From: Poecilobothrus nobilitatus
Taxonomy: Eukaryota; Arthropoda; Insecta; Diptera; Dolichopodidae
DNA length: 64,000 nucleotides
Direction: 5' to 3'
NCBI GenBank assembly: GCA_947095535.1
Contig: OX352773.1
Coordinates: 270,560,515-270,624,514, forward strand
Position numbers and translations under genes: made by a program. Below the pieces are notes generated by a model that ran no database searches, was not told where the DNA came from, and saw only the letters and a program-made list of their open reading frames with translations. Positions within the stretch are counted from its first letter, which is position 1. Each line of letters opens with the position of its first letter. This document shows positions 18,674-47,761 of the stretch, piece by piece.

Positions 18674-18960
18674 CTACGTTGAAACACCAGTTGTACTTGA
18701 TAAACTACTAGGAGGTCTTGGTGGCGGTTCAGGAGTTGTTGTTCTTGGTCTTATTGTTATTAATGATGGTGATCTAGGTGATGATAATGATGTTGTTGTT
18801 GTTGCTGATGTTGTTATATTACCATTATTTGTTAAATTGGTTATTGTTAAATTAGATGGTAAAATATTGTGTACACCTCCCAAACGTACAGGATAATTAA
18901 AATATGAATAATAATTATAATATAAATGTGTATATAACCGTGTATTACATAATCGTGTAG
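18674..18960 (-). CDS. dsx: doublesex male-specific terminal coding exon
   Basis: This exon encodes the male-specific C-terminus of DSX: a split Ala codon, 94 residues, then TAG. Near its start is LYYNYYSYF, which matches the conserved YYNYY of the Drosophila male tail (QIYYNYYTPM). The rest is Thr/Ser/Pro/Asn-rich (TTSATTTTS, RPRTTTPEPPPRPPSS), resembling the low-complexity Ser/Thr/Pro end of Drosophila DSX-M. At 95 residues it is clearly shorter than the roughly 150 of Drosophila. The acceptor is strong: a long T/C tract then TTTTTTATAG. Its phase (two bases completing a codon) fits the common exon at 47618-47761 exactly, across a 28,657-nt intron that contains the female exon. Identification is by motif and phase rather than alignment; the low-complexity part alone would not be diagnostic. 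Confidence 0.9.
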
Positions 18961-19006
18961 CTATAAAAAATTAAAAAAAAAAAAAAGAAAGAAAAAAAAA
19001 AAAATT
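18961..19006 (-). promoter_or_regulatory. dsx: strong male 3' splice site and polypyrimidine tract of dsx
   Basis: On the minus strand nearly 40 bases of T with a few C precede TATAG and the male exon, giving a near-ideal polypyrimidine tract. This fits constitutive, default use in the absence of Tra. Confidence 0.8.
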
Positions 19007-19929
19007 CATATTATTATCAAATATATAAAGTTATATAAGAATAAAATAATTTTCAGGAGCATTTTATTATTGAATTTTGAAAATATTCATTTCAAACATT
19101 TAAAATTAATGCATTTTCCTAATAATATAGAAATACATACATATAGATATATTATATATATCACATTTTATTTAATTATTTAATTAAATTATTTTTAATT
19201 TTAATAATATATTAATAAATTTTATATATATCTATATTTACATAAAATAAATGACTTAAACTAATTTTTTTAAAATTCAAATTAATATTTTTTTATTCAT
19301 ACATACATAATTTTATTTATTATTTCTTAATGCTATTTTTTTTTTAATTATAAAGGTCTAAATGATAATTGTATATATTTAAATGTATTTTAATTTTTTT
19401 TTAATTTATATAAAAGCATATATATAGAGTAAAAAAAAATTTAATTTATAGATAAATATAATTCATAGTTCAAAAAAAAAACAGGATGTTATTTAAATTA
19501 ATAAGAAAACTGCCATAATAACTAAAATAATATCGGGCAGAACTCAGAAGAATAATATAGGTGTCGATTAATGGCTTAATATACGTAAGTAGCTATCTAA
19601 ATAAAAATTTGAAAAATTCAAATAATTAAATATGTGTTAAATGTTGTAAGGGAACGTTCTTCGGTATTGTTGAAATGCAATTTATAAGCGAATACCGAAT
19701 TTAATTTCTAACGCGAAAATTATTTATTATATATGTATTTAAAATTGTTGTGTGGCAATTCGTTTGTGATTCGAATATCACGAATGTAGAACCATTTTCC
19801 ATCTCATGTGTTCCCCAAAATTGGTAATAATTATATTTTGAATTAATATAAGTTTAAAGAGAACATCAAAACCATCATTCACCATATTTCTGCATATCTT
19901 AAACCAATTTTTACTACATAACAGAATCT

Positions 19930-20105
19930 TCTCTTGTCCAAACTGTATACAACAGTACTAAATGTCCATAATCTATTGTTTGGTTAAAAAAATAGGTGGT
20001 CTTTAGTGAGTTTAAGTGCCACACCTTGTTTGAGGAATCGTACTCATACTGCTGCTCTTTCAGCATTTTTCGATAATTCTCACCTACCCCCATAAAGAAA
20101 AAATA
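19930..20105 (+). repeat. dispersed repeat of ~175 bp, copy 1
   Basis: Resembles 21545-21715 in the same orientation. Shared words in order are CTTG(T/C)CCAAAC, A(C/T)AGTACTAAA, CCAT(A/G)ATCTATT, TTTGGT(T/C)AAAAAA, GGTGGT, then TTTTTCGATAATTC / TTTTTCGATGATTC and (C)ACCTACCCCCA / (T)ACTTACCCTCA. The family is unrecognised and noncoding. Confidence 0.6.
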
Positions 20106-20973
20106 TAGTAATAAGGTTTAAATGATCAAATCAATGAAAATTCCAATTCACAATAGAATACTTGTTTGATTTCTGTTCAAGTTGATACAAAAAATAAATT
20201 AAATTTTTATTAATAAAATAAAATATTTTTACCTTTCAACATATTCATAGATTTTTACATTTAAAATTATTCATCCATCTCTAAACTGTATGAATTCATT
20301 GAACTTAAATTAATATAATGCAATTTTCAAGTGCCATTCAAATAAGTGTAACTTTTTTAAAACTGGTTCTTTTTTATAACATAAAAAATTTGAGATAAAA
20401 ATGGAAATAAGTAGGTATATATAAGCAATTTTCACCATTTATTATACATAATTAACTTAATAAATATGTACACACACTTATATATACATACATATTACAT
20501 TTTAAATTAAAGATAAAAAAATTTAAAGAATTAAAAAAGAAATATTAAAAAAAAAAGAAAAAAATGTATGCGTGCACTTTATTTATTTAGTTTTTTTTTT
20601 TATTACACAGTAAAAAGTCATAAAAACTCGATTTCGTGTAAAACAAAGTTTCGAAAAGGACTCTTCCAGATTGCACCACAATTTTAAAATGTTGCTTTAT
20701 CATGTATTCCTTATATGTACATGTATATATATAAACATACATATATATTTTTAGTTAATTAGTTACTTAATTGTTCTAAAAGCAGCCGCATTTCATTTTA
20801 TATAATTAGTTTATGGCACATAGATGAATTAATGAATGGTATCATTGTTTGGATAGCCTCAAGGACTTATTAGTGATAATGATTTTTTTTTTTTTTTTTG
20901 AGTAAAATATTATTTGTGTCGCTGTTGTTCATGGGGATCAGTGCAATTCAACAAATTACAATTGAAATTATTT

Positions 20974-21004
<31 letters not shown>

Positions 21005-21544
21005 TCTTATATAGCAATTATTATAATGTTTGCTGAATCTAAAGTGAAGTTAAATAAATTTTTTCGAAATTCAAATTCATTTTAATAGGTTTCATTAGTT
21101 TTCCAGTTATTAGAACTTTTTTTTTTTAATATGTGTAGCAAAAATAAATAAAATTTTATGATTTTCTAATTATTTTATTACAAATTGCTACAATTATTAA
21201 AATTATAACAATTAGGAAATTTTATAAGAGTTTCCAAATTATTGTCATAGCCAGGATCGCTATGACATCAATTCATATTTGTAAATAAAATATTAAATAT
21301 TCATAAAAAATTTAACAATATAGCATTTATAAATAAACATTCAATAGATTGCCGAGCAACATCAATTAAGTAAAATAAAAACCCTAGGGATTGTTTTTTA
21401 GTTTTCTTCTGAATGAGATTTGGATCCAAAAAAAAAAAAAAATTAAATCAACATAATTTAATCGAACAATAATTTTGCATTAAGAAAAGAACTGTGGATT
21501 AACCTGACAATCAAAGTACTGTATATATTTAATTGAAACTTAAC

Positions 21545-21715
21545 TTGCCTTGCCCAAACAATACAATAGTACTAAAGGTTCCATGATCTATTATTTGGTC
21601 AAAAAAGGGAGGTGGTTCAAGTCACACAAAATCATAGAAGACTCATGCTCGTTCCACTCCTTTATCGTGTTTTTCGATGATTCCTACTTACCCTCACAAA
21701 AAAGACAAAAAAAAT
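21545..21715 (+). repeat. dispersed repeat of ~175 bp, copy 2
   Basis: Second copy of the repeat at 19930-20105. It overlaps a 62-codon open frame that has no counterpart in copy 1, so the frame is not considered a gene. Confidence 0.6.
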
Positions 21716-24700
21716 ACAATGAACTTAAGGTTTCTTAAATATGGCATATCAAATATATTGAATAATTTCTACCAGAGATTTTATTAAATTCACGAATAAA
21801 CAAAATCGTAATTTATATAGGCGGATAAATGGATTTTTAAAATAATGTGGTCTTAAATTTTATGGTGATTACTAAAATTAAATACAAATTGATTTGGAAA
21901 TTTGTTGGAATTCGCTATAATAATTTTTTAGAACTAAATTTAATTTTATTATGTCGAAATAGTTTTTATTGTGCCTTTGTGGCATAAATACTAATGATAC
22001 GTGAACATAACGTCGAAAAAAAAATTACGTACTTCGGTATTTATTTGTGACAGCACATACAAGAGGCTTAACATTTACAAATACCAAAAATATACCTTAT
22101 AAAAAAAAAGAATTTAAATTCAATTTAAAGGCAAAAATTTATGCGCTTATGCTTAAAATATTAGAAATTTAAGTAATGGTTTTATAAAAAAAATAATATT
22201 ATTTTATATTTAAATGACATGTTATTGTTACATAAATTTCAATAATTAAAACAAAAAAAAAAAAAAAACATAAAAATACAATTTCTGAATTAAGTAATTA
22301 TAACTTTATAAGCAATAATGCCAGTTATATTCTTGGTAATATTTAAATTTGTTGGATAATTATTATTATTAGCCTAAAAACATAGAATCATTAACAATGA
22401 ATGAATTATTATATAATTTAATTGTAAATTTAATATAACTTTTATTAAATAATACATTTTCATACGAAATAAAACTATAGTTAATCAGATCTATACGCAG
22501 GATTTCTAGGAAATGCTTTAGGAAATTTTAAAATTTAGTTACTTACTAATATAATTTCAAAATTATTTAATTTTTATGCTATTTTAGAGGTTAATTAAGA
22601 TCAATTGTAAAAACAATAATTTGTAAACAACAAAAAAAAAAAAAATAAAAAAAAAAAAGAAGAATTTATAAAATAATAATTTAAAAGTCTTAATTTATGT
22701 TCTGTAAGTGAGTAAAATTTTTTGTAATAGATTTTTTTTTTTATTTTTTTTTTTTATTACAAAATTTTCTTATTATTTTTTTTTTCTTTAATTTAAAATT
22801 CTATAGTGTGGTGGATTTTTATAGTAATTTTGTAAATTATAGTCATGTTATTTAATTTGATATAATATATAAGTGTATAGTCTAATATGAATAATACATA
22901 ATTATCTGGAAATATATGTATAAAAACATGGTGTTTTTGTTAGTTAGGGGTAGTGTTAAGTAAGTTTTCCATAGCTCTTCAGAGCTTTATACCTATATAT
23001 ACTATTCAGAGAGATTGAAAATTCTTTAAATGGTTCAAAGTAATTATAAGATTTTTGTTTGTAATGGATTTTGAACATTTTAGGTTTTAGTCCTGTCTGT
23101 CACTTACACATATATATATATATATATATAAAGTTATGTTAATATGTTTTAAAAATATGTATTATGTAATCCCATAAAAAAAGAAAATAATATAATTTAA
23201 GAACATGAAATATTTATTTTTTCCTAAAAGATAACATAGCCCAACTTAATGGATTATATTTATTATTTATTATAATATATACATTTTATGTATAGAATCG
23301 TTATAACTGTCTTATTACCATTTTAGTGAAACTAAATAATAATAAAATTGAAATTAAGTTTTTTAAAAGACTTTGTATAGATGAGGTCTTACCAATTAAT
23401 CGGATATCGTGACATAAAAAGAAAAGGTAGAATAAAAAGAGGTTTAAAGCATATATGATTTTTCCTAATTTGGTCTTCCTTATTCCTATATATATTAAAT
23501 AACATTCATTAAACACCATGTATATATATTTTTTTTTTTTTTTTTTGAAAGTAGAAAAGTATATATAGAAAATATAAAAAAATAATAATTTTATATATAT
23601 ATTATTTCTGTTTAAATTAAATGTAATAAGAAGTCATAAGTTGTTGCAATTGTGACTGCAATTCAAAAAAAAAAAAAAAAATTTTTTTTTTTTGTTTTCA
23701 AGATGAAAGAGAAAAAGAGAAAAAAAAAACATTGAAATAAAACCTAGAAATTTTTACGATTAAGTAATAAAAATGGGTAGTAAAATTTCATATATTTCAT
23801 TTATTCTATATTAAGTGCATATATACATATATCATCATATTATTATATGAGTGTATCTATATTTATATGGTATTATTATTATGGACTTAATACAAAATAT
23901 AAAATAAAAAAAAAACAAAAAACAAAAAACTGAAACAAAAAGAAAAATGAAAATCGAATTTAGTTAATTGCAAAATTACATTACGAAAATTATTATTTTT
24001 TTTATACCCACGAACGATTTTTTTCTAAATTTCATATTATTATTTTTTCAATAGCATTCAACTTGAATTATAAAATTTATTTTGAATTTATAATGTTATA
24101 GTGCCTAAAAGTATGCAGTATACTCATTCCGGTTTATTTATTTTTTATTTCATATCTGAGTAAATTAATTTTATTTAGAATTTCTAAGGAGTTATAATAA
24201 ATTTCTTATACACCAGAATAATTTAAGGAGCATGAAGACGATGTCCTTAAATATCCGTAAAGAACTCTTTAGTATAATAACTTCTATAGTTGAGTATTTG
24301 AACAGAAAATTTTTATGTAATTTTTGTGTTATATAAAATTGATATAATTTTTTAGAGAATTGATTTTCGAATATCTGAATCTTAAATATTTAATTTTGGG
24401 ATTAATATTTTTGATATATATTTGTATATAATATATCTTACAGTTGTTTCGTATAAAGCTTTGTTTTTTGTTATTACTACTAAGATCACTTAACAATAGG
24501 AAGAATATGTGAAGGTCTATATACACTATGGCTTATATTATCTTGTTTTTGTTATTTAATTTTTCAGTACAAAAATATGAGACATTTTCAATTTACGATC
24601 ATATTAGAAAAAATAAATGTTTTGACGTAGGATGTTAACATGACATTTTGTCTGCCATTTTGTTGTGAAATTTTAAAATTGAATTTTTAATGACAAATAT

Positions 24701-24762
24701 TTTAAGAGTATTTTAATGTGTAGTAAATAAAACTGCTGAGTACATATGTTGCAAACTATGCA

Positions 24763-24972
24763 AGAAACATTTATTTTTTTTAGTACATTTCTCTGCCACA
24801 TGAATGTGAACAAGAAATTGCACAGCCTTTTCTTTACAAGCGTGGTTGTAAATGTAAGGGGGAATAACTCTTACGACGTGTGTGGGATTCGAACCCACAC
24901 TCTCTTGGTGCTTACAGCGTATTTTATACGTTCTTACCCTATACGCCACCGAGGCCTCCGCGAGAAACGTTT
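24763..24972 (-). mobile_element. SINE family 2 copy (tRNA-derived), best preserved
   Basis: The minus strand starts GAGGCCTCGGTGGCGTATAG, has box B GGTTCGAATCC (complement of 24885-24895), then ACGTCGTAAGAGTTATTCCC, TTTACAACCACGC and a tail seen as plus-strand T-rich DNA at 24772-24781. Near-perfect 10-bp direct repeats, AGAAACATTT at 24763-24772 and AGAAACGTTT at 24963-24972, flank it and are read as the target-site duplication. Open frames on both strands here are artefacts. Confidence 0.85.
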
Positions 24973-25264
24973 GATAAAAGTTTTTAGTTAAAATTTGTTT
25001 GCAATATGTGTATAAGACTTGATTTTGTTTAGCTTTGTATTTACAATACAATAATTCATTTAAACTTAAGATTCAAAAACTTGAGTGTTAATGCTTTGAG
25101 AATTTGTCCTTTTGCTATTTTGCCATATTACACAAGTATCAAAAACCTTTAAAAGAAGTAATAAAGTAATTTCAAACAGATATCTCCTGATTAAACGGTA
25201 TAATCGATTAAAATTAAACTTTGTAAATGTGGGGGAAATATACATATATATGCAGTAGAAATTA

Positions 25265-25610
25265 GGTGTGGGAAAAAAGTTATTCGATTCGTCAAACCGT
25301 TACAACAGCACAAAAGCATTTTCGATTTTTTTTTCGTTTTTTCATTCGTTTAAAAATGGTTTGACCGATTAACTTCAAAGTTCGTATATGTAAGCTTTTC
25401 TTCGATTGACTGTTGGCTGTTATAACAACAGAATTAGAATTAGTTAACCCGTTCCGGTACGAAGATGTGTCAACATTTTTTATAAGTGCATTTTGTTCAA
25501 TCATGTACAGGTTTTCTTTGACCCGAAACGAACGGTACAACATCTTTTTAAAGATCTTTTGGTTTTTGACTCTCAATTCCAAGTGATTTGATTGATTTAT
25601 TTCAAACTTT
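25265..25610. other. less AT-rich block of unknown origin
   Basis: Base composition is visibly less AT-rich than its surroundings, with CG-containing words (TCGTCAAACCGTTAC, CCCGTTCCGGTACG, CCCGAAACGAACGG). A 96-codon open frame on the minus strand (25292-25582) has no recognisable domain. The phrase TTGACCGATTAACTTCAAA resembles noncoding insect transposon sequence. It is most likely a fragment of an unrecognised repeat. Confidence 0.4.
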
Positions 25611-28600
25611 CTGAATGTTTTCGTCCTTACAAAACAAGATATAAATAAAAAACAAATATATTAAAGAAACGCGTACAACCGCTGGGTAATTTCGATAGTA
25701 TTATAATTTATATTTATTTATACGTAATTACATTTAGTCTTATTTTTAAAACAAATTTAAAAAAACAGTAGCTCTGTAAAAGTAGCTCAGAAAAACTCAG
25801 ATAATATGTAAAAATATTTTAAATGTATATATGACTAAAAATGTATTTACAATCTCATTAAATAAATAAATAGAAGTAAATAATTATTTACATTTTTTTT
25901 TCTTATTAAATTAATTTTAAAATTAAAATTAAATTTTAAAATAAGTTTAATTTTTTAGTGCTCTTACTAATAATAGCCTTGTAGATTTTATAGGATGAAT
26001 GGATGTTAGTTTGTAAAAAGAAGAAATTTTAAAATTTTCCAGTTTCAATTTCTTTATCTTGACAATGACGATACACTTGAATTAATTAAAACGTCATTTA
26101 AAATTAATTAAAGCTTCATTTGAGATACTTTTGATAAAATATTTTTTTATTACAACACTTCTGTACAATTCGTTAGCGTTGCCAGAGAAAAAAAAATTTT
26201 TTTTTTAATTTTAAATGCAAAATTCAAAGTGTTCTAGTTTTTAGTTAGCCGTTTGAATTTTACGTTATATCTATAATAGTCTGTTTAGTTAGATGCAATA
26301 TTTGAAATTGCTATCCATCAAGACATATATTTCCATAATTAAGAAAAATTTTTGAACATTAAAATTAGAATTAACTTAGTTGATCCGGTACTAAGGGATA
26401 GTAAGGATGTAGATATTAAATGGATTTGTGGATATGGAATTTATTGCATATTCAAATTAAAATGAAGAGAAGTAAATGTTTTGTCCCAATATTTAATGCA
26501 CTTTTTCTAAGTATAACTATATATGTTTTGATTCAAAACTTTAGATTTGATATCCATTTTCGTTCCATTTTATTTTATTAATAATTTAAGATTAGGAAGA
26601 CTTTATTATTAATTAAATAACATAAAAAATACTGTTTAATTATGTTTATGAAGGTTAATTTTCCATTCATATAGAATTTTTATGACTTTCATACTCAAAA
26701 CTCAAAGTTTTTTTTTTTTTTTTTAGTTTTTGATATAAATTTTATAGTTTTCAGTAATAAAAAAAAATAATTATCTTATTTACTTTTGTATTGTATTTTA
26801 AGTTTACACAAACGTTCTATTTTATTTTATAACCTATATGTTAAGTTTTTATTTTTTTTTATTTTGGTGAAAATAATATTAAAAGATAAATTAAATATTG
26901 ATAAAGGCATATACGAGTAGTGTATATATTATGTAGTTATACATAGAAACAGTAAAATAGAAAATTACAATAAAAATATTTTTAGCTCATGAAAAGATTG
27001 ATACTTCATTATTTTTGAGTATTTGATAATGTTTTCGAAATAGAAAAAATTCTTTTCAAATACGTATAAAAAAAAGAATTAAAATATTCTAGACTTTTTT
27101 TTCACAAAGCTAAAATAGATATTTAGAAACATACCTACCACTTTAAATGAAATATGTACCTGTTCCGAGTAAGTTTAAAAGCTATTATAATTTGACAGTT
27201 TAAAAATATTTTGGCTTATATTCAGTGACACATATAGTAACTATGATAACGAACTAAAATTAAAAATTAATTTAAAATCCGGTGACTTTCAAAATTCGGC
27301 ATTAATAATTGACGAGTTCAAAAATTAGATGGCAATTATAGAAGTTGCGTTGAATGCTATAAAAAATTCACTCAAAAAGGCAGATGCTCAACAGTATGGA
27401 AACAATCAAAACTATTTTTTACGACGTATTAAACCGTTTTTTGAGTTTCGAATAATATTTAAGTTAAAATTGATTTATGTAAAAAATATATTAATTAATT
27501 TAAATTTAATAGCAAAATAACAAATAGATAAAAAGTGTCGACGGTATACAGAAAATGTTGTTTATTTGTAGGGATTGTGTCATAATTCCAAAAAGTTTCT
27601 GTAAAGGTTAAGTCTTGCCAGCGCATTTTTTGTTGCGGCAGTGGTGCGAAATTTTTCGAAAAATATTATTACATGGCGTCAATAAGCCGAGTTATGCCAG
27701 ATTTATGAGAATATGCCACACCAACTATATATTTCCGCGTGATACATCGTTTTTGTATGCGATTTTCATGCGGTTTCCGCTAATAAATGTCAAAAATTTT
27801 TGTTTTTAAATATAAACAATCGTAACAAAGGAGAAAATCGAGAACAAAGTTGAAAAATTAATCGAGTTACTATAAAAATATTCTATATTATAAGATTTGT
27901 CGAACCAATACTATAAAAATATAAAAAAAGGATAAAATACTTATAGGATAAAATTGTGATTACTAACTGAAAGTGGTAATATAGTATTATTTTGTTACAA
28001 ACATTGGGTAATTGGGTAATTTAAAAAAATTATGTTTTTTTGATTTATGATTTACCATGCGTATTCCGCTTCTCTATCGCAAAACAAAACGCGTCAGTCT
28101 GGAGAAGTCTTTAAAAATATAAGTTTTTCATCAAAGACATATATATTTTAGTTATTTGTGGAATGATAATTAATAGGTATTTTTTCGTGTTTTTCCTTAT
28201 TTTATTTGTGTTTTATTATAATTTATAATTAATTAAAAAAATTAAAGCAGATTTGTTTGTTTAGTTTATTTCCCTATATAATTTTAGTCAATTCTGGAAC
28301 TTTAAACTAGTCGTTTTAGATTAAAATATTTATTTGTAAGCATTTCAAAAAACTTCAAATGCATTTTTCAGACGTATGCAAATTTTGAGTGATTTTTTTA
28401 AACTTTTTTGGTATTAAAATTTTTTAATTTATTAAAATACAATTTTTATATCGGAAATAACATTTATTAATTTTAAAAAAATTTAAAAGATTTTGTTGTT
28501 CCCTTTTTGAGAAATTCTACTTCGTTTTAGACCTCGCTATGTTTGGAAATACATTTTCCTTTAATGATTAATTTTTTCGGTTTGGTGCCACTTCAAAATC

Positions 28601-31935: not shown

Positions 31936-31966
31936 GTAGAATGAAAACCAAAGCTTTTTAAAAGGC

Positions 31967-35499: not shown

Positions 35500-35559
35500 A
35501 TATCTCCATCTCCATGAATCATGTACCGTAATTGTCTAATACATGATCGTCTATTGTCG

Positions 35560-35885: not shown

Positions 35886-36490
35886 GTTAGTGATATAACC
35901 ATATAGAATAGCAAATTCAAATTTGGTTTAATTGTACATTTATATAATATATAAGCGGATAAATGAACAAATGAACAAATAAAATTTTTAAAATATACTT
36001 TTATAAAATCTCAAGGTTGTAAAAGATTACAAAGTGGTTTTTTATTTGATTGATTCATGATTTTTCTTTTATTTTTATTATTAATCATTTTTAATATTCT
36101 GTTATTTTAGGAAAACACGTAGTCCAAAATTAGTGTTTAAAGACGATAACTAGACAAATGGTAGACAATTGAAATTAGAATTTTAAAATTTATTCCATAT
36201 TACAAAAATATCAATAAAGACAATTTTAATTGAATGGACATTCACGATTCAAAATAGCATTCTACAAAAATTAAATAAATCGATACCGGATAATAAAATG
36301 ATAAATTATTATTTAGAAATTGGCTTTATATTTCTTGGAAAGTACATTCTGTATAAAATATATTAAGATATGTTTATTGTAATGCAAATTATTGATTTTT
36401 AAATTTGAATACAAATTTGTTGTACCTAACGCTTCCATAAAATTTGTGTAATGCATATGTATTTGATTTAATTTATTTTGTTTTGAGTTG

Positions 36491-37467
36491 TTGGGAGCAC
36501 CCCACTTAGCCTAAACCGATTTCTCAAAAAGATATTTGGCATAAAGCCAGTTAGCATAAAAAGACATTTATCAAACTTCCATTTATGCTAATTGGACGCT
36601 TCTCATAAAATCTTATTGGCAAATGGGACATTTAGCATAAATTTTTTGTAGATGATAGTTTTGTTGTTGGTTATGTAATAAGGTTGGTAGGGTTGGTCAT
36701 GATAATGATCACAGTTAACCGTGATGGCGATAATGATGTTTATAATTCTGTATTTAAATTTATAATTTAGATACAAAATAAGAAATCTGAGGTTTACAAT
36801 TTTTAGGAGAAAGTTAATTATTTTTCAGATGAAAATGTCACTAAAATTTTTTATATGAAATTAGTGGAAAATATAATATATATATATGTGTGTGTGTGTG
36901 AATAGTGTAGTGTATGTGCCAGATGCTGAATAGGAGGGATTTTAAATTTGAATTCGAAATCAGAATTATACGCTTTTTCCAGAAAATTTATATACAGATT
37001 CGAAATTAGGGGGGATTTTGTAGTTAGATACAAAATCAGCATTTCAATAATTTGTTTAACGGGGGATTCTTTTTAATGTCTTTTCTTTTACGTACACATT
37101 TCAAAGCAAAATTAAAATATGTATTCAAATTGTAGAAATTTGGATTGTACAGTTGGTTTCAAAATCAGGATTTCAATAATTGGTTTAGCTGAAGTTTGGA
37201 CGCGGCAGCTCTCACAATTTTAAATACTTTGTTGCTGAAATATGTTTGTATAATTTAACCAACCTTACTACGTAAACAAGAACAATAATATCATATACAA
37301 AAAATTGATGCGAAGTGTTGATTTGAAATTAAAAGAAGTCTAAATGGAATTTTGCGAAATGTCTTTTTATGCTAACTGGTTTTATGCTACAAGTCTTTTT
37401 ATGCCAACTGTGGTTATGCCAAATGTATTTTTGAGAAATTAATTTAGGCCAACTGTCATAGACCCAA
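36491..37467. mobile_element. ~1-kb element with ~100-bp terminal inverted repeats
   Basis: The left end is TTGGG...TTAGCCTAAACCGATTTCTCAAAAAGATATTTGGCATAAAGCC... (36491 on). The reverse complement of the right end is TTGGG...TTGGCCTAAATTAATTTCTCAAAAATACATTTGGCATAACC... (from 37467). The homology continues through CAGTTAGCATAAAAAGACATTT. The interior has no transposase. It includes AGGGATTTTAAATTTGAATTC and two ACAAAATCAG-TTTCAAT motifs (about 37030 and 37155) shared with the MITE at 10700-11016, suggesting a nested relic. Superfamily unknown. Confidence 0.7.
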
Positions 37468-37925
37468 ATATTTTAATGATGTTTGAGTTTGCTTAAAAAG
37501 TTGTTTTATAAATTACTTAATAGTTTGGATCCCCAACCAGATATAATGTGAAGCGAAAATAAATTAACCTTTCCTTTTCAGGTCTAGTTACGGAACAAGA
37601 ATTATATTATATTATAATTTGTGATCCAAATATCTGAAGACTTATTAAAAATTGACCTTTTAAATTAAATATTTCAGGTAATTTGTATGTAGTTGATATC
37701 ATTGATTGCAATTTTAGAATGACTTTTATTTTTAAAAAATGTCGAGGCTTTAAATCAAAAATAATCGAATTCTTTCGATTTCCTCAGTAGAGTTCCTTAT
37801 TTTAAAGTTCATGTCATACAAAAACTATATCACATAAATTGTCATTAATATATATATATATACAGTAAAAATGTTACATAGTGTATAATTAATAAAATAT
37901 TTTTGTAAATGTAAAATTGTTTTTA

Positions 37926-38014
37926 GCACATTTTCCACAAAAATTTAAAAAATGTGTCTATTAGTTATGTGCCTGTATGTGCCTGTCTAATTGTTTACAA
38001 AACTTCTATACAAC
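37926..38014 (-). repeat. family A repeat, copy 3, left part (split by hAT element)
   Basis: Begins GCACATTTTCC, then TGTCTATTAG and GTTTACAAAACTTCTATAC, the inverted form of the family A terminus seen at 62458. The sequence resumes at 38654 after the hAT insertion: joining the two sides restores a stretch similar to the inverted copy at 50830-51639 (ACTTCTACACCGTTTAAAATTAAGCA-like). Confidence 0.7.
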
Positions 38015-38653
38015 GTTTGAAATAGTGTTGTGTTACTCACTGATGAGGTACCTCAAATGTTCCACTCGTTTTCGAAAAATGTCACAATACCTCAAAAAAA
38101 TAATTTGTACCACCTCATGTCACAATACCTCAAAAAGTTATTTTTACCAAAATGAGTCATGAGTAGAAAAATAAAATTTTATTTTTTGTACTGTTGCAAA
38201 ATTTTCTACTCATAACTCATTTTGGTACAAATAATTTTTTAAGGTATTGGACATTTTCTACTCATAACTCATTTTGGTAAAAATAACTTTTTGAGATATT
38301 GTGACATGAGGTGGTACAAATTATTTTTTTGAGGTATTGTGACATTTTTCGAAAATTATAGTGAAGTACTACAAATTACAAAGTACTTCAAAAAAGAATT
38401 TGCAGTAGAAAATGAGTAGTACAATTACAATGATACAAAATAGTAGAACGAGTAGGCGACAGTTTGTGTAGTGTAGACTGAAGAGGTAAAAAAGAGGTTT
38501 TCAGTAGAAAGAAAAAATAGTACAACGAAAGTTTGTGGAATCTTGAGGTGCGTACCTCATTTGAGGTACTACATTGTACCACCTCATTTTGCAAAATGAG
38601 TGCCTCATACAAACTCATTCAAAAATGAGGTATTACCCAACACTAGTTTGAAA
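38015..38653. mobile_element. hAT-type nonautonomous element with 8-bp target duplication
   Basis: The element body is 38023-38645. The ends are inverted: the left starts TAGTGTTGTGTTACTC and the reverse complement of the right starts TAGTGTTGGGTAATACCTC; CAGTGTTGGG-like termini are typical of hAT. The 8-bp direct repeat GTTTGAAA lies at 38015-38022 and 38646-38653, the size hAT transposases make. Internally it carries a second, near-perfect long inverted repeat of about 105 bp: about 38066-38170 against 38250-38355, rich in CACAATACCTCAAAAA. No transposase is encoded. It lies inside a family A copy. Confidence 0.88.
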
Positions 38654-38705
38654 TAGAGCACTGATATTTAAATTTTTATAACACAAATTCTTTAAGGTAT
38701 ATCTT
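38654..38705 (-). repeat. family A repeat, copy 3, right part
   Basis: Continuation of the family A copy beyond the hAT insertion (TAGAGCACTGATATTTAAATT...). Similarity fades after about 38700, so the end is uncertain. Confidence 0.45.
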
Positions 38706-39701
38706 CTATCTGCACCTAAACGATAGCTACCATGTCGGGCGAATTCTATATTGAAAAAAAAAAGTTTTTAAACCGCCTTTTAACCGCCAGTTTTTTTTAC
38801 ATCTCGGAACGCAATTTTTGAGTTTTTAAAATTGACTTTTTATTGGTAAAGTTGCATTTTGATTTTTTAAATTTTTGCTATAAATGAACGTGTTTTCAAA
38901 TATAATTTTAAACAACTTATTAGAGTTGTGTTATTTAAAATATATTAAACAAAATTTAAAATTGAGAAAAAAAAAATTAGATCAATTCCAAAAGTTTCAA
39001 ATTTTTCTATTATAATTCTGTATTACAACATTACTCCAACTTTTGACTTTTTATGCAAAAATTTAACGCAAAATATTGCAAAAAAAAGTATTTTGATATT
39101 TTATTTTTAAACTGGCATGTGTGGTAGCCCCTATTGAAAAAATTTATAGAAAAGCATCCAACATTTTTTGAATGCACGAAATATTTTTTCCTGGGTTTTA
39201 AAAACTCATTTTATACTATTCGGGACGCATGGCATTGTAAAATATTTTTGACGTACATAATGGGATGTAATACATTGTAAAATTTTGCGGTTTTTTTACA
39301 ATATGAAACTCAGGGATCGTAAGAAAACTGCAACCCGCTACAATGGAAAAATAATACAATCTATAATTTATGACCTAAACACATTGTGTCGAAAATAGAA
39401 TTTAAAATGTCGACTTTTATAAAAACTGGCTGCTATTTTGAAGAAACCCTTCGCAGTCGTATTGATATGATTTAAAAAACCTAGTCCCCGATACTGTAAT
39501 AGAAACTAAAAACTTATAAAAGTTACAAAAAGCCCCGGAAAGGTCTCTTGGTTTTTGTGATGTTTTTTAGGGTTGGCTTAAAAGTTGAACTTTTTTATTT
39601 TTGTTTACTATATTTGAATACAAAAACAGGGTTTAAATCATATCGGTCCAACTTCTTTTGATTCCCAAAATACGGTGGCTCCTTGCGACCTACGCTATTG
39701 A
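38706..39701 (-). other. intron stretch of unknown origin, no gene
   Basis: Somewhat less AT-rich than average, with many short palindromic words but no recognised coding domain or repeat copy. Confidence 0.35.
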
Positions 39702-40244
39702 GGGTAAAATCAAAAATTAAACATTGCGACAGTGTTGCAATAATGTTGCAGGTCATGAAATCAAAAATTAATCATGCAACAAACAACATAATCATTTAAG
39801 TAACATTGTAGCAACATTAAAGTAACATTTATCAAATATGAGCAACATCAAATTTCATGTAGCTACAAGTACTCAATTTTAAGTTTTGGTTGACAATTAA
39901 CAATTATTGAAATTTAAATTTTATTTAGTTTTTAAAATGGAAGAAATTAAATTTTTAATTTTGCTTCGTCTTGAAAGAGAAGAAGATTTTAAAAGTGGTA
40001 GATCAAATAAAACTGTTTTATGAGGAAGAATTTTTGAAGAATTAAAAAAAAATTTCCTTCAAAAAATTACACTAAAGAAGAAATTCAAAGAAAAAATATA
40101 TTTTACCTTTCTTTCACATAATTACAACCAAATATTCATCAATCACAAAATTTTGAAAAATCAATTTTAATATGATATGTTACATAAATGTTGCAACAAG
40201 ATTCAGGTAGTGTTACTTTTCATGTTTAATTTTTGATTTTGCCC
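39702..40244 (+). mobile_element. TIR element (PIF/Harbinger-like?) with internal gene relic
   Basis: The 23-bp terminal inverted repeats differ at one base: the left at 39702-39724 begins GGGTAAAATCAAAAATTAAA, and the reverse complement of 40222-40244 begins GGGCAAAATCAAAAATTAAA. Subterminal DNA is rich in GTTGCAA / AACATT words. A broken MADF/Myb-like gene lies inside. TIRs starting GGG together with a Myb-like accessory gene suggest PIF/Harbinger, but no clear 3-bp target duplication was found, so the superfamily is tentative. Confidence 0.75.
39937..40120 (+). pseudogene. broken MADF/Myb-SANT-like DNA-binding domain
   Basis: From an ATG the frame reads MEEIKFLILLRLEREEDF then KSGRSNKTVL, then a TGA where this family has Trp (VL-W-GRI), then GRIFEELKKNF. 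A shift after an A-run restores FPSKNYTKEEIQRK. The spacing R-SNK-LW-I-EL---FP---YT-EEIQRK is that of Myb/SANT-like (MADF-type) domains found in transposon accessory proteins and insect regulators. One stop and one frameshift show it is dead. It lies wholly within the TIR element at 39702-40244. Confidence 0.6.
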
Positions 40245-40541
40245 ATAGTCATAGGTTGTTTATGAAACCGATTTCTAAATCCAATTTATTTTTATTTGTG
40301 TATCCAAAAATTTTTCGAATTACAATTTAACAACGATGTAAAATGAATTTCCAATAACGAGGCAATTTAAATTTTTTTAAGTTTACATTTAAGATTATGC
40401 GACATCGTGACTTCACAAATACATTTGCGATGTCAACGCTTCTTTTATCAACTTTATAAAAATTATATATATAAAATAACTACATACTTTTGCCGTACGG
40501 TATAATAATTTACCCTTATGTGCAACTTATTTTTGCCAAAA

Positions 40542-40705
40542 TTTTTGGCAACTTCTTAAGGTTGAAGTTAGAAACTTGAAAGTTTTAGAAGAGTTAGATC
40601 TATGCAGATAAGTACGAGTCACTTCAGAAAATATTTTTGTATCGCCTCTCGTTTAAGAGCTGTAAGGGGCTAAAAACTGAAAATTTTATATTTTTAAACA
40701 TTTTT
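40542..40705 (-). repeat. family A repeat, copy 4, part upstream of DINE insertion
   Basis: Matches the reverse complement of 51060-51210 closely: GAAGTTAGAAACTTGAAAG, GAGTTAGAT, AGTCACTTCAG, AATATTTTTGTATCGCC, GAGCTGTAAGGGGCTAAAAA, CTGAAAATTTTATATTTTTAAACA. It stops where the DINE-like element starts (about 40706) and resumes after it. Confidence 0.75.
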
Positions 40706-42732
40706 ATACCCTACACCTAAAGTATAGGGTATATTAACTTTGGTATGGTGTTTGTAACCACCAAAAGGAAGCGAGTTAGGTATAGACATGTATATATATT
40801 CTGAATCAGGATCACCGCTGGAGTCGATTTAGCGATGTCCGTCCGTCCGTCCGTCCGTCCGTACGCACGATAACTCAAAAAATAATGATGCTATCTTGAT
40901 GAAATTTATATAGTAGGTTACTAATTACGAAAGAAAGGCTAAGTTCGAATCTGGACAAAATCCGTCCATGGGTTCGGATTCTGGAAGCTTTCGAATGATT
41001 CCGGAGCAAACGAGATTATCTCCAAAAGCAACAAAGATAGAACCTTCAAATTTTGTACAATGATGTTTCTTCCCGTTCGATTTATGTCTCTGAAATTTAA
41101 GAGGATTTGGTCCATGGGTTTGGGTTATGGAAGCTTCCGAACGAGCACCAGAGCAAATGAGATTATCTCCAAAACCAACAAAGATAGAACCTTTAAATTT
41201 TTTATAATGATGTTTCTTCCAGTTTGATTTATGTCTCTCAAATTTAAGAGGATTTGGTCCATGGGTTTGGATTTGGAAGCTTCCGAACGAGCCCCAGAGC
41301 AAATGAGATTATCTCCAAAACCAATAAAGATATAACCTTTAAATTTGGCAGGGTGGTGTTCTTTCATGTTTTATTTAAGTCTCTGAAATGTGAGAAGATT
41401 TGGTCCATGGGTTCGGGTTTTGGAAGCTTCCGAACGAGCCCCAGAGCAAACGAGATTATCTCCAAAACCAATAAAGATAGAACCTTTAAATTTTTTATAA
41501 TGATGTTTCTTTCAGTTTGATCTATGTCTCTAAAATTTAAGAGGATGTGGTCCATGGGTTTGGATTTTGGAAGCTTCCGAACGAGCCCCAGAGCAAATGA
41601 GATTATCTCCAAAAACAACAAATATATAACCTTTAAATTTGGCCGAATGGTGTTTTTTCATGTTTGATTTAGGTCTCTGAAATTTGAGAGGATTTGGCCA
41701 TGGGTTTAAATTTGAAAGAATTTGAACCGTGGATTCGAATTTTGGAAGCTTCCGAACGAGCCGCAGAGCAAATGAGATTATATCCAATACGAACAAAGGT
41801 AGAACCTTTGAATTTGGTACAATGGTGTTCTTTCGTGTTTGATTTATGTCTCTGAAATTTAAGAGGATTTGGTCCATGGGTTTGGTTTTGGAAGCTTCCG
41901 AACGAGCCCCAGAGCATATGAGATTATCTCCAAAACCAATAAAGATATAACCTTTACTTTTGGCAGAATGGTGTTCTTTCATGTATGATTTAGGCCTCTG
42001 AAATTTGAGAGGATTTGGTCCTTGGGTTCGGATTTTGAAAGCTTCCGAACGAGCCTCAGAGCAAATGATATTATCTCCAAATGCAACAAAGATATAACCT
42101 TTAAATTAGGCAGAATGGTGTTCCTTCATGTTTGATTTATGTTTCTGAAATTTGTGAGGATTTGGTCCATGGGTTCAAATCTTGGAAGCTTCCGGACGAG
42201 CCCCAGAGCAAACGAGTATATCTCCACAACCAACAAAGATAGAACTTTTATTTTTAGTACAAAGGTGTTCTGTTATGTTTCCTTTTCTGTAAAATTGGAA
42301 ACTGACATTTGAAAGAATTTGAACGATGGGTTCGTATTTTGGAAACTTCCGGACGAGCACAAGAGCAACGAGCATATCTCCAAAACCAAAAAAAGTAGAA
42401 CCTTTAAATTTAATAGAATGGTGTTCTGGCAAGTTTTCTTTATGTTCCTGAGATGGATTCGATGAATTGGAATGGCAATTCGGGTAGCTGACACAAACCT
42501 CCCAAGGACTACCAATCTTCGAAAATAATTAAGATAGAAACTTAAAATTTTATACAAGGGTGTCAAGCATATCCCAAGCGGATGCCTCTTTTACGTTCTT
42601 GAAATTCGAGTTGAATAAGACAGAAAAGGGAAGAAGTTCAAGCAGCTGCCAAAAACACTTATGGATTTTTAATTTAATTCGAATTATTCAGGTGTAGGGT
42701 ATTAATAAGTCGGTTGCATCGACTTACTGTTA
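40706..42732 (+). mobile_element. DINE-1/Helentron-like element with central 147-bp tandem repeats
   Basis: The left end has ATACCCTACACCT (40706-40718) within a small palindrome, and the right has its inverse AGGTGTAGGGTAT (42690-42702), giving subterminal inverted repeats. Next come the block GGAGTCGATTTAGCGATGTCC, a (GTCC)n microsatellite (about 40837-40861) and ACGCACGATAACTCAAAAAA, then a tandem array (about 40965-42480). The 3' end carries a hairpin AAGTCG-GTTGCAT-CGACTT near 42708-42726. Inverted ends, GTCY microsatellite, central repeats of about 150 bp and a 3' hairpin are the architecture described for DINE-1/Helentron-associated elements. No coding gene. It interrupts a family A copy. 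Confidence 0.82.
40965..42480 (+). repeat. ~10 tandem copies of a 146-147-bp unit
   Basis: The landmark TCCATGGGTT recurs at 40965, 41111, 41258, 41404, 41551, about 41697, 41873, 42019 (CTTGGG) and 42166, with a degenerate copy near 42322; spacing is 146 or 147 bp. One unit near 41697-41740 contains a partial internal duplication of about 30 bp, and the last unit is strongly diverged. Each unit holds GGAAGCTTCCGAACGAGC, GAGCAAATGAGATTATCTCC, AAAGATAGAACCTTTAAATTT and GTCTCTGAAATTTAAGAGG. The several open frames of 80-150 codons here are repeats of the unit and are not genes. Confidence 0.93.
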
Positions 42733-42830
42733 CATTTACTTGTTAATTGAACACTTGTCCAAAATTTTTTTGATATACAAAAATTAAAGCTCCACATTTT
42801 TATTTTCATTAACAAATTTTCTTAATAATG
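42733..42830 (-). repeat. family A repeat, copy 4, part downstream of DINE insertion
   Basis: ACACTTGTCCAAAATTTTTTTGATATAC-AAAAATTAAAGCTCCACATTTTTA matches the next part of the inverted family A sequence (compare 63030-63080, ATATAAAAATTAAAGCTCC), so the DINE-like element interrupted a pre-existing copy. Confidence 0.65.
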
Positions 42831-43940
42831 TAAGATTACCTTAAATTGACGAAAGTGTAACTTGATTTTTCCCAATTTTTCTAACAATTTTTTATAATTT
42901 TAATATTAATATAAATTTATTTTTATCCAAACTTATTTACTTCTTTCTTATTAATATCAAAATATTTTTGGCTTATTAGACCCAAATTTTTAACTTTTAT
43001 CTTACTATAGTATCCAATAATATATTTTTAAATATTATATGATGGCTTTCATTTTGTTTGTAATGTAGGATATTGTAATGTTATTTATTATATTGTTGGA
43101 CATTGTATATAAATCAAAATCAATATTAACATGTAGAATATTACATCGAAATGTTGAGACATTGTTTATTTGAAGGTTCTGCATACCCTTATTCACTTGT
43201 TTATCTGGGCCCGTAGGAAATTTTTCTTAAAACTCTATCAATCCTATCTAGGCATTTATTTTCTTTTTTCGAACAAATATTTTAACTACCATTCTTCGCT
43301 ACTGCCTGAGGTCATATGTTTAACAAACTTTGAACTTAAATATTTTATTTTTCACTTCTTTATTGGACTTTTTAAATTCTTAAATTAAAAAGAAATTTCC
43401 CTTATTCCAGTCTATATAATTATAATTATCTAAATTTTCCACTTTTCATTCTTTTCTATTTATTTATTACTCAGAAATTCTCATTTTTTTGAAAGCTTAG
43501 ATTTAAAGTATAGGTTAAATATTTATTATAGATAATTTTAGTTAGTTAGGTTTTCAGTTTTAATTAAAAAAAAATGATAGATAGTATAATGCAAAATTAC
43601 CATAGTTTCTTTAATAAAAAACCTAAGTTAATAACATTCAACAACAATTTTTTTGTTTTACGAAGATATAAATGAGGTTGAGATTCACCTCAAAAGAAGT
43701 CAGTGAGATCAACGCATAAGAATAGGCTGGCTTCTTTTGATTTCTTTCGATTAACATAAAAATAAGATTTGACAGAAAAATGGTTTGCGAAAATTTGAAG
43801 AAGAAAATTAATATTAAAATTTTGGACAAGTCGAAAAAAAAAAAGGAAAAAAATTGTTCAACTAAGGAATTTTTTTTAACGTAATGAAGACTTTTCTTTT
43901 AAAGTGATACGCACAGACATTACAAAATATATTTGAAACT
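42831..43940 (-). other. male intron / possible distal female 3' UTR, no gene
   Basis: AT-rich. Frames of 63-72 codons at 43170 and 43638 have no recognisable domain. The female transcript may end within or before this interval. Confidence 0.4.
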
Positions 43941-44086
43941 AGAGAGAAAGAAACATCTTGCAAATTTTTGGCAACTTCTTAAGATTGAAATTAGAAACTT
44001 GAAAGTTTTAGAAGAGTTAGATCTATGGAGATAAGTAAGAGTAATTTCAGAAAATATTTAATAGAGAGAAAGAAACATCTTGCAAA
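43941..44086. repeat. 98-bp insertion of family A sequence between 24-bp direct repeats
   Basis: A perfect 24-bp direct repeat (starts AGAGAGAAAGAAAC) is at 43941-43964 and 44063-44086. The 98 bp between them (43965-44062) match 40542-40636 over about 95 bp with roughly six differences. The inserted piece has no element ends of its own. This looks like a break-repair filler copied from a family A locus. Confidence 0.8.
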
Positions 44087-44301
44087 AGAAATAAAAATAT
44101 TATAAGAGAATTCTTTTGTTTTACGTTCAGCACATCTATATGATTGAATAGGTATGGATGAAGCAACACTTGTATATATATTAATAAAATCCATCTTATG
44201 AATTCCTCTATTGATTTCAACTCAAAATATAAATATAATTTAAAAAATTGTACTCACCTTTTAACTAAGTTATTGGTGTAGAAAAAATTATGTTAATAAA
44301 T

Positions 44302-44820
44302 TGTTGATTGATAAAAATAGTTATAAAAAATTTAAATAATCCGATACATAATTGATTACAATATCAGATAATTTAAAACAAGAAATAAATTGTAACTCTT
44401 AAGGTTAAAGGTTAATGTATAACAAAAACAAAAAAAAAAAAAAACAAATAAAAAAAATTGTTATAATTATTGGAAATTTGTTAAAAGTTGATTGTTGAAA
44501 AAATTAAAGTTGATATTTATGTTGATTGAAGAAATTGTTAATTGGTTAATTTTTCGCCTCCAAACTCCAATTGACACATGTATGTGCATTTGATTGTGTT
44601 GATTGTGTTGATTATTGAATGTTGAATTTTATTTCAATTAATAGAAATAATAAAAATTATAAGGATATCTATAACACCAACATTTGAATTATAGCGTATT
44701 TTCATCCAAGTCATCTTTATGATAAGTGATGTTTAGTAGTAATAGTTGATTGAAGAAAATTTTAATTTAATAGTTGAATTTTGTTGATTGTAATTAAAGT
44801 TGAATATTGTTGATTGTTGA
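44302..44820 (-). promoter_or_regulatory. dsx: dsx repeat element (dsxRE) cluster, Tra/Tra2 exonic splicing enhancer
   Basis: The fly dsxRE consensus TCWWCRATCAACA appears on the minus strand as a cluster in the presumed 3' UTR of the female exon. Perfect 13/13 copies are at 44520-44532 and 44808-44820. Copies with one mismatch are at 44302-44314, 44486-44498, 44606-44618 and 44744-44756. Weaker copies are at 44782-44794 (11/13) and 44597-44609 (10/13, overlapping). In Drosophila six such repeats bind Tra and Tra2 with SR proteins to activate the weak female acceptor. Here the nearest copy is about 1.0 kb and the farthest about 1.5 kb from the acceptor, farther than the roughly 300 nt in Drosophila. 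Orientation, clustering and context make chance unlikely; function is inferred. Confidence 0.92.
44551..44570 (-). promoter_or_regulatory. possible purine-rich enhancer (PRE-like) between dsxREs
   Basis: On the minus strand this stretch is G/A-rich (contains GGAG, then GGAGGCGAAAA) and lies between dsxRE copies. Drosophila has a purine-rich enhancer between repeats 5 and 6 that recruits SR proteins. The analogy rests on position and composition only. Confidence 0.3.
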
Positions 44821-45744
44821 TTTTTTTTTTTTTTTTTTTTTTTAATTTATATTAAACTTAATAAAATCCAAAATTACTAACTAAAATATAGTATTCAGGC
44901 ACATAATAGAAAAAACAAAAAAAAAAAAGAGTGCTACCATCGTACAATAAATTTATTTTTTTTTGTTTTTTTTTTTTTTAATTTCATAAATGTGTTTGTT
45001 TATTTATATTTAACTTAAGTATATTTATATTCATTAAATAATTTATAATAAGATTAATTTAAGTATTTAATATTTAAAAAATTTATAAAAAAAAATTACA
45101 AAACTAAAGAAAAACATAAGAAAAACTTTTCTAATAATATCACTAATATTAATTTTAAATAACAATATTTAAAATACATTTAAGTATATAATATTATAAT
45201 ATTTATAAATATATTCATTTATAATGTAAAAAGAAATTTTAAATATTTTAAGATGTTTTTTTTTTTTTTTATATTTTTTATAAACTCGAATTTGTGATCT
45301 TTATTAAACAAGTGAGTATGTATATAATTAGAGCAAAAATTATGACTATTTTCTAAGGCTACCAATAAATTAAATATACAAAATGTTTTTCTAGTAATAT
45401 TAAGAGAAGATTTACACGCGATTCTAATATAAAAATATATATTTAATTTTTTTTTTATTTTTTTTTATTGTTGTTTTTATGTTTTTCTTAATAATTACAT
45501 ACATAATATTTATTTATTAGTTTTGATTATTAATATTTTATTTTATAATTTTAAAATTATAAATTTTTGTTTTTTTTTTTTTATATAATAGCAACTTTAA
45601 TTATTGTTCATTTGTTTTTGATTTTTTTTTTTTGTTTTTTTTTTCTTATTTTTCACTTTTATATCAAATTAATATTTTTTTTTTAAATAATTGAAATATA
45701 GTGTTAAAAAATAAAACAAACAATTAAGTGCCTTAAAAAAATTA
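44821..45744 (-). other. proximal 3' UTR of the female dsx exon
   Basis: Between the female stop codons and the first dsxRE the minus strand is A-rich with long homopolymer runs (for example 44821-44843 and 45566-45582). No dsxRE copy or coding signal was seen. It is inferred to be transcribed because the enhancer must lie in the exon to act as in Drosophila. Confidence 0.6.
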
Positions 45745-45836
45745 TCATCCGCATTGACGTGTTGCATCACGTAATGCTCCACCATCATAAATATTGAGAT
45801 TATTTTGACGAGAATATTCATTAACAACAAGTTGTC
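45745..45836 (-). CDS. dsx: doublesex female-specific terminal coding exon
   Basis: This exon encodes the female-specific C-terminus of DSX. After the split Gly it reads 29 residues including VVNEYSRQNNLNIYDGG and ending ATRQCG, then TGA followed at once by TAA. The 30-residue length and the VNEYSRQ-NLNIYDGG-LR-TRQCG pattern match the Drosophila female tail, which extends the OD2 helix and forms the DSX-F-specific surface (Intersex binding in Drosophila). The acceptor, TTTAAATTAG, has an A-rich and interrupted pyrimidine tract, typical of the regulated weak female site. The exon lies 1,781 nt downstream of the common exon. Its 3' UTR continues toward lower coordinates through the dsxRE cluster at 44302-44820; the poly(A) site cannot be fixed. 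The call rests on motif match and phase continuity. Confidence 0.95.
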
Positions 45837-45895
45837 CTAATTTAAATTTAATTAAAATTAATTTAATAAAAAGATTTTCATTTAAAAATATAATA
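45837..45895 (-). promoter_or_regulatory. dsx: weak female 3' splice site of dsx
   Basis: The bases upstream of the female exon on the minus strand are alternating A and T (TTAATTTTAAATTTAAATTAG-like), with no long pyrimidine run before AG. This is the expected form of a site needing Tra/Tra2 activation. Contrast with the male site at 18961-19006. Confidence 0.75.
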
Positions 45896-47617
45896 TTTAA
45901 TAAATAACTTAAAAATTATTAAAATAAATTTTTTAGTTATTGGTTATATCTTTAAATTATTTTAAATCTTTAGGTAAATATATTTGTACATATATCATTA
46001 AATTGACTTTCTAGCAGTTTTTGCTGTAATTTTTTATAATTTATATTAAATTTATTTTAAATTTTTCTTTAATTTGTTTTTTTCAGACAAAAAGTAAAAT
46101 GCTTGCAGTATATGCTTGCAGTTAATAAATCAATGAACACAACACATATGTGTGTACGCTTTATTTTAAAAGAAGTTTCAAAATGATTAAAAAAATAAAA
46201 AAATGGATATGATGTAAAAAAATTTAAAAGATCAGAATAAAAGAGCAGTAAAAAGAGTATTCAACAAAAAACTGCAAACCTTTAAGGAAGAAGAGTCAAT
46301 TGCAAACCATATAGGGGCCAAATATTAAAACAGGCTGAAAAAATATGAGTTTATAGGCAAATGACAGCTCAGGTTATATTATTGTTCTGGCGGTTACGTA
46401 TACGTAAACTGTAAGAAAAACTATTCTTTCCTTGAAGCGTTTCAATAAATTTTGGTATACAAATAGAAATTCTTTGTAAAGCATTTTAATTAATTAAATA
46501 TTAAAACAGTTTGATTAGCAAACGCTTAAATTCAAAGTATATACATACATACAAATCTTTAAAACAATATCCATTGAAATTTTTTTTATTCTGAAACAAG
46601 AGAAGACTACATTTAAATTTCTAAAATTTTAACTTTTTTTTTAACCTCTTTTTTTTTAATAATAATTTTAATCTTTTAAAAGACCATTTTTATAATGTGT
46701 ATATATACATATATAATATGTTTTCTCATGCTAATTGGAGCTCAGCAGAAAAATTGAATAATAAATACATTACATATTAAAACAAACGTAATAATAGCGA
46801 ATAGTACACATTAAGCTGACATTTTTCATAAGAACCAACTGAACTTCTAACGTTTACATATAAAACTTAAAGTAAATATTTTTAAAAAAATTTTTGGTTA
46901 ATTAAAATAAAAATGTGTTGGTAACAAATATTTAACAAAAAAAAGAAAAATAAAAGTAATTTTTCTAAAAAAAAATATTCAATTCCTTTTGAGAACAGAA
47001 AACGAAAGGGAAATAGTTTTTATACCTTGTTGTACGTGATATGATAACTATTACAAGTGGTAGAAAAAATATAAAAGCAAAAACATTTATTACATATAGA
47101 AGAATCTATCTCTAATAGTTTTTGAGATAGTTTAGGTTAAAAATTCCCTATTTTCCAAAAAAAAACCTTTAGCAAGAAACTATTTTTATTACATTCATAG
47201 TTTTGACATATATTTAACCGTTTACCAAACAATTAAACGTCAATTTATTGCACTCCCATCAATAGTTTCATAACTTTACAAAATTTCTGTTATTTACTTG
47301 TAATTTATCTATAATTATAGGAAATTTCTTAAGACAAAATATCTTTAAAATCATTAGAAAAGAAAATCCCTCCTGTAATGAACTTTTTTGCTTCTTCTTA
47401 CCACATCTACCAACTTTCACTTCTGTTCATTTATTGAAAGAAATCATTTTTATACTAAGAAGTTTAATTAATTTTTTTTGATTTGCTTTAACGTTTTTAA
47501 AAGAAAAAGCAGGATTAGTTTCCTATTTTTTTTTTTTTTTTTTTTTGTAATTTAAAGTTTTTTGGTGAAAACTTTGAAAATTTTTGTAAAAAAATGAAAA
47601 TAAATTTTTATAATAAC
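45837..47617 (-). other. dsx female intron (common exon to female exon)
   Basis: Intron of 1,781 nt with donor GTTATT and acceptor ATTAG. It is AT-rich with no open frame of note. A perfect 14-bp palindrome, TTACGTATACGTAA, lies at 46394-46407. In males this whole interval is part of the larger male intron. Confidence 0.85.
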
Positions 47618-47761
47618 CTTCATCGATCCGTCTTGTAGCTTCATCGATATCAGCTCCAGCATATTTAAGTATCACATACATTAGTGGCATCATTTCCCAT
47701 GGATAGTGAAATTTTTCTAATAGTTTTTGACAATATTCTAATAGAATTTCTGCATTTGGAA
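47618..47761 (-). CDS. dsx: doublesex last common exon (OD2 / dimerisation domain core)
   Basis: This internal coding exon of doublesex, the DM-domain transcription factor at the end of the insect sex-determination cascade, encodes 47 whole codons plus split codons at both ends. Visible motifs are EYCQKLLEKF, YPWEMMPLMYVILK and DEATRRIDE, which match the C-terminal oligomerisation domain (OD2) of Drosophila DSX almost residue for residue. The domain is helical (UBA-like) and mediates DSX dimerisation. The exon begins after a strong acceptor (T-rich tract, then TTTTCAG) with two bases completing a Val codon, and ends GAAG before a GTTATT donor, leaving phase 1. That donor serves both sexes: the last base G joins GA of the female exon or CT of the male exon. 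The exon start just before V-P agrees with the Drosophila intron position as I remember it. The DM DNA-binding exon is not in this window, so the gene is partial here. Confidence 0.96.

Follow-up and report, generated by a model that had tools for sequence, protein, structure and literature searches.

We analysed a window of 64,000 nucleotides from the long-legged fly Poecilobothrus nobilitatus (G000:C2:270560515-270624514 of an assembly of 944 Mb in 84 contigs; GC content of the window, 23.4%), which by the similarity of its exons holds the 3' half of the gene doublesex (dsx). The mitochondrial contig C84 (17,390 bases) agrees with the species name: its ND2 matches that of P. nobilitatus at 100% identity over 100% of its length, and Dolichopus simplex follows at 89%. 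NCBI taxonomy places the species in Brachycera, Eremoneura, Empidoidea, Dolichopodidae. The three dsx exons all lie on the minus strand, as do the splice sites described below: a shared exon for OD2, the DSX dimerisation domain (47618..47761, 144 nt), and, 1.8 and 28.7 kb downstream of it, the female-specific (45745..45836) and male-specific (18674..18960) coding parts. The original prediction, made from the DNA letters alone, had placed these three exons and assigned the two tails to the sexes; its coordinates proved exact to the base, the tails were correctly named, and the four motifs that it quoted (YCQKLLEKF, MPLMYVILK, VVNEYSRQ and YYNYY) are all present in the translations. Both tails are in phase, as it had also stated: the common exon, whose final base is G, leaves phase 1, and either GA at 45836 or CT at 18960 completes the codon.

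The common exon translates as PNAEILLEYCQKLLEKFHYPWEMMPLMYVILKYAGADIDEATRRIDE. Searches with the translated exons confirmed their similarity to dsx. Pfam DSX_dimer passed its cut-off on the female form (E 3.6e-30) and scored 2.1e-29 on the male form; the Drosophila DSX structure PDB 2jz1 (E 5.3e-37) aligned with the female form, 77 residues long, from residue 4 to residue 77, i.e. through the female tail; and the male tail of Anastrepha DSX matched the male exon (E 1.7e-5, see below). The female-specific coding part consists of 30 residues and a TGA stop, the joined peptide reading ...RRIDE/GQLVVNEYSRQNNLNIYDGGALRDATRQCG before the stop. This tail, of the type ...LRxxTRQCG, is identical at 25 of 30 positions to that of D. 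simulans (P0021) and likewise to that of Eurosta (P0009). Of the 12 bases that precede NYAG in the acceptor of the common exon, 11 are pyrimidines. The donor of this exon (GAAG/GTTATT, 47612..47617) is weak, with 7 of 9 consensus positions, and nevertheless would be needed in both sexes.

The window also contains a cluster of doublesex repeat elements (dsxREs), on which the original prediction was silent. Scanning both strands with the pattern TCWWCRATCAACA and at most one mismatch gave seven matches, a number that none of 100 shuffles reached. Six of them are clustered on the gene strand at 44302..44820 (eight with up to two mismatches), as compared with 0.79 expected window-wide. The first repeat lies 1,016 nt from the female acceptor, and the cluster spans 1.0-1.5 kb from it. 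The female acceptor itself (45837..45852) is weak, with 5 of 12 pyrimidines as against 11 for the common and 10 for the male acceptor; according to PMC3045327, the weak acceptor of Aedes exon 5b likewise has 5 of 12. A weak acceptor together with a dsxRE cluster is the known signature of a female exon activated by TRA/TRA2. Between 45836 and 44200 we found neither a Nasonia-type repeat nor a stretch of 14 or more purines other than pure A; a classical purine-rich element is therefore not shown.

A second feature not mentioned in the original prediction is a donor, AAG/GTGAGT (in the context AAAAG/GTGAGT, 44252..44260), which agrees with the consensus at 9 of 9 positions and follows the last repeat by 44 nt. 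Only 3 of the 2,603 GT sites on the gene strand are 9-of-9 donors of the form MAG/GTRAGT, this one included, and AGGTGAGT occurs a single time in the window, at the 44258 donor. From the density of such sites, the chance of finding one within 100 nt would be about 0.5%, by an estimate made post hoc. With a TRA/TRA2-type repeat cluster in place as well, the claim that the window holds the sex-specific splicing switch has more support than the original prediction could draw on; its description of the female exon as a last exon has become doubtful with the perfect donor just past the repeats, which points to a cassette.

We consider it likely, with a probability of roughly 0.55, that the female exon would be an internal cassette of 1,579 nt (44258..45836, its 3' boundary being inferred), skipped in males and activated by TRA/TRA2 in females, rather than a last exon, because the repeats adjoin a donor as they do in mosquito dsx and in fruitless. 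In males, the weak female acceptor would be bypassed and the shared exon joined directly to the male acceptor, which is strong. TRA/TRA2 bound to the repeats in females would define the exon from two sides, namely at the weak acceptor 1.0-1.5 kb upstream and at the strong donor 44 nt downstream, and the male exon would be retained in the female mRNA as untranslated sequence. What is expected of a cassette, a donor at the 3' end of the exon beside the dsxREs, is found at the sequence level; the arrangement typical of Drosophila, with dsxREs on the acceptor side of the exon, is not, the acceptor being 1,016 nt away.

Published descriptions of other dsx genes provide the terms of comparison. In the account of PMC4461909, the female exon of Drosophila carries its dsxREs at the 5' end and that of mosquitoes near the 3' end, and the Anopheles repeats appear to work on the donor, like those of fruitless. 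PMC6593557, as far as its account goes, has males of Anopheles and sand flies skipping a female cassette and females retaining the male exon as untranslated region. The cassette mode is described for these two groups, and a two-exon form for Aedes. The predicted female exon of P. nobilitatus resembles those of A. gambiae and Phlebotomus in carrying its dsxREs next to a donor, at the 3' end. The size is also similar: subtracting the male (6,975 nt) from the female (8,667 nt) A. gambiae transcript, as their lengths are quoted in PMC10397894, we obtained 1,692 nt (about 1.7 kb), to be compared with the 1,579 nt predicted here. Unlike in Anopheles, where the switch is thought, in the text of PMC4461909, to be due to a weak donor, it is the acceptor that is weak here; and the repeats fit the Drosophila consensus, whereas those of Anopheles and Aedes are described as degenerate (PMC3572092). 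With D. melanogaster dsx the gene shares OD2 and the female tail, the weak female acceptor and a cluster of 13-nt dsxREs in the female exon, but its repeats are 1.0-1.5 kb away from the acceptor, with a consensus donor following after 44 nt, and the male tail has diverged. The arrangement resembles that of Drosophila fruitless P1, where dsxREs precede a canonical donor by dozens to a few hundred nucleotides (50-230 nt before the female donor, by the figures given in PMC3572092), except that fruitless picks between two donors, while here the choice would be between inclusion and skipping of an exon.

Further evidence came from the same genome. Across the 944 Mb, pairs of perfect dsxREs with a spacing of 12-42 nt were found at 5 places, as compared with 1 for the reversed pattern; the dsx cluster is not among them, its two perfect copies being further apart. 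One of these places (L026, C1:287494000-287503999, minus strand) is beside a frame ...PLALDLISTQKRNLENIGPPPPPPTPPPR, which resembles what we take to be the male N-terminus of fruitless. Two stretches 425-428 kb downstream on the same strand are 95% and 92% identical to the sequence used as the BTB domain of FRU, and none of the remaining 35 BTB matches exceeds 65% identity; the 92% match holds one internal TAG. This frame resemblance and these BTB stretches make L026 very likely the fruitless P1 exon. Its dsxREs stand directly after the likely male donor, and about 6 kb further on come two more repeat matches, with one and two mismatches, whose ends lie 94 and 67 nt ahead of a 9-of-9 donor, the only one on its strand in the 10 kb. 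The layout at dsx thus matches one that this fly very likely uses at fruitless for the choice of a donor. Sex regulation of the other four paired-dsxRE places is not shown, and two of them (L019 and L020) look like simple-sequence surroundings, so that the pattern itself is no proof of function.

Several observations weigh against the cassette. The 44258 donor was spotted post hoc, and MAGGTRAGT occurs four times on the two strands of the window, against 1.04 expected. The weak female acceptor is equally a Drosophila-type feature. Hexamers resembling polyadenylation signals are plentiful around the predicted exon: AATAAA occurs nine times on the way from the female stop to 44633 and a further ten times over 43527 to 42804, and there is an ATTAAA at 44062; the stretch from 44633 to 43527, which lacks AATAAA, is a point for the cassette. 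Finally, the Brachycera studied so far mostly have a terminal female exon, with an alternative acceptor and alternative polyadenylation in most of them, according to the survey in PMC6593557. A terminal female exon as in Drosophila is a serious rival, to which we would give a substantial chance, if one short of even. It would have its own polyadenylation site, TRA/TRA2 would act only on its weak acceptor, and the donor-like sequence at 44258 would be idle. The weak acceptor, the presence of dsxREs, the AATAAA hexamers ahead of 44633 and from 43527 onward and the habit of most studied Brachycera all agree with it. What speaks for the cassette instead is the placement of the repeats, which begin 1,016 nt from the acceptor and stop 44 nt before a 9-of-9 donor, a position that, by the description in PMC4461909, corresponds to the 3' end used in mosquitoes and not to the 5' end used in Drosophila.

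The weak point of the case is the male exon. It encodes 95 residues followed by a TAG stop (joined peptide ...RRIDE/ATRLCNTRLYTHLYYNYYSYFNYP...TGVST before the stop), and its acceptor (18961..18976) has 10 of 12 pyrimidines. The YYNYY motif alone is weak evidence in so AT-rich a window. We therefore compared five DSX-M tails with the window by tblastn, with the low-complexity filter and the composition correction off; the five, out of 123 proteins, were picked for their easily separable tails (P0003, P0026 and P0033 are among the male-type tails left out). All five had their top hit in the window inside 18960-18674, in the correct frame. None of 300 shuffles scored as well in the exon for Anastrepha (34.3 bits, E 1.7e-5, the alignment starting at LYYNYYS), D. 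bipectinata (34.3 bits) and D. persimilis (29.6 bits), so homology is well marked for three of the five tails; it is weak for the other two, Hermetia (20.4 bits, 11 of 300 shuffles as good) and Cephus (19.6 bits, 18 of 300). Composition aids these hits, because 78, 97 and 89 of the 300 shuffles of the three strongest tails also peaked in the male exon. The possibility that this is a chance open frame, the true male exon being elsewhere, draws on that effect, on the weak scores of Hermetia and Cephus, on the fact that the strongest Drosophila hits fall on the Thr/Pro-rich part of the tail, and on the absence of the residues with which the male tail of Drosophila begins (ARVEINRIVAQ..., P0005). 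It is nevertheless quite improbable in view of the Anastrepha match, the convergence of all five tails on the right frame, the suitable acceptor and phase, and the base composition: the exon has 31% GC, with sharp edges to 10-11% in its 300-nt flanks, and GC by codon position is 0.27/0.59/0.07. Tail homology and GC periodicity combined indicate that it is a real coding exon.

The 5' part of the gene was sought in the rest of the genome. The DM domain gave four matches (37 candidates scored), one of them at C2:270753790-270753927, on the dsx strand and 145 kb upstream of the common exon, in a frame that begins MVSEDNWNDTMSDSDLLD. The likely donor of this DM exon (G/GTAAG) leaves phase 1 and is compatible with the common exon, so that joining the two would give VPNAEILLEYC. 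We infer a direct splice between them, in which case the intron would measure 145 kb, the coding part would extend over about 175 kb, and the predicted products would be of 300 (female) and 365 (male) amino acids. A protein search with the male form yielded 1,846 hits among 7,971 candidates scored, and the best four among the 120 matches listed were DSX of Anastrepha, Hermetia, Bactrocera and Drosophila. When scoring was restricted to residues 222-365, there were 26 hits among 773 candidates; Anastrepha P0001 showed 42% identity over 93% of these residues, many other hits covering mainly OD2. The male tails of P. nobilitatus, Anastrepha and Hermetia align over YYNYY/YCYYW and over a Ser/Pro/Thr-rich end, but the overall identity of 52% and 54% counts the shared OD2, and the tails alone are far less similar. 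That the locus is a dead or duplicated dsx copy is hardly credible: we found no point in its favour, DSX_dimer has a single match in the whole genome (4 candidates scored), and its frames are open and fit the phase of a DM exon that lies on the dsx strand.

Other features of the window are a 147-bp tandem-repeat array with long open frames at 40964-42445, within the intron that separates the female from the male exon, and a 199-bp tandem duplication (98% matches) at 11038-11436. Looking for nested or mobile-element genes, we scanned 10 of the 102 stop-to-stop frames of at least 60 amino acids with Pfam and found none over a family cut-off; Rfam (at gathering scores) and ARAGORN reported nothing in the window. 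Elsewhere in the genome, a minus-strand array at C8:67817246-67817341 (L021) comprises seven dsxRE matches with at most one mismatch that recur about every 16 nt; immediately downstream of it begins a Ser/Lys-rich frame of 2,031 amino acids that runs to the end of L021; a frame of 1,641 amino acids comes next, in L022. From its sequence, this array is possibly another TRA/TRA2 target. Three perfect dsxREs lie between long open frames on the plus strand at C8:67425766-67425855 (L024), at a distance of 391 kb from the array of seven. As candidates for transformer we rejected L017 and L018: none of eight frames from L016-L018 reached a Pfam family cut-off, and no Arg/Ser-rich frame was prominent around L017/L018.

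Among titles and abstract openings in the literature searched, which is thin in subscription journals, we found no treatment of dolichopodid dsx. New here are the 9-of-9 donor past the repeats, the cluster of dsxREs itself and the weakness of the female acceptor, and the cassette is predicted exactly to the base. We give about even odds to the broader view that dolichopodid dsx would be intermediate between those of mosquitoes and Drosophila, with a female cassette whose TRA/TRA2 enhancer, located at the 3' end as in fruitless, would drive a weak acceptor across the exon as well as the strong donor downstream. If this is true, the terminal female exon in the style of Drosophila would be of late origin, inside Cyclorrhapha or shortly before that group, instead of dating from the base of Brachycera. 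A cassette in Empidoidea, which are close to Cyclorrhapha, would date the change in architecture and suggest a single set of TRA/TRA2 sites able to act on a donor, an acceptor or both.

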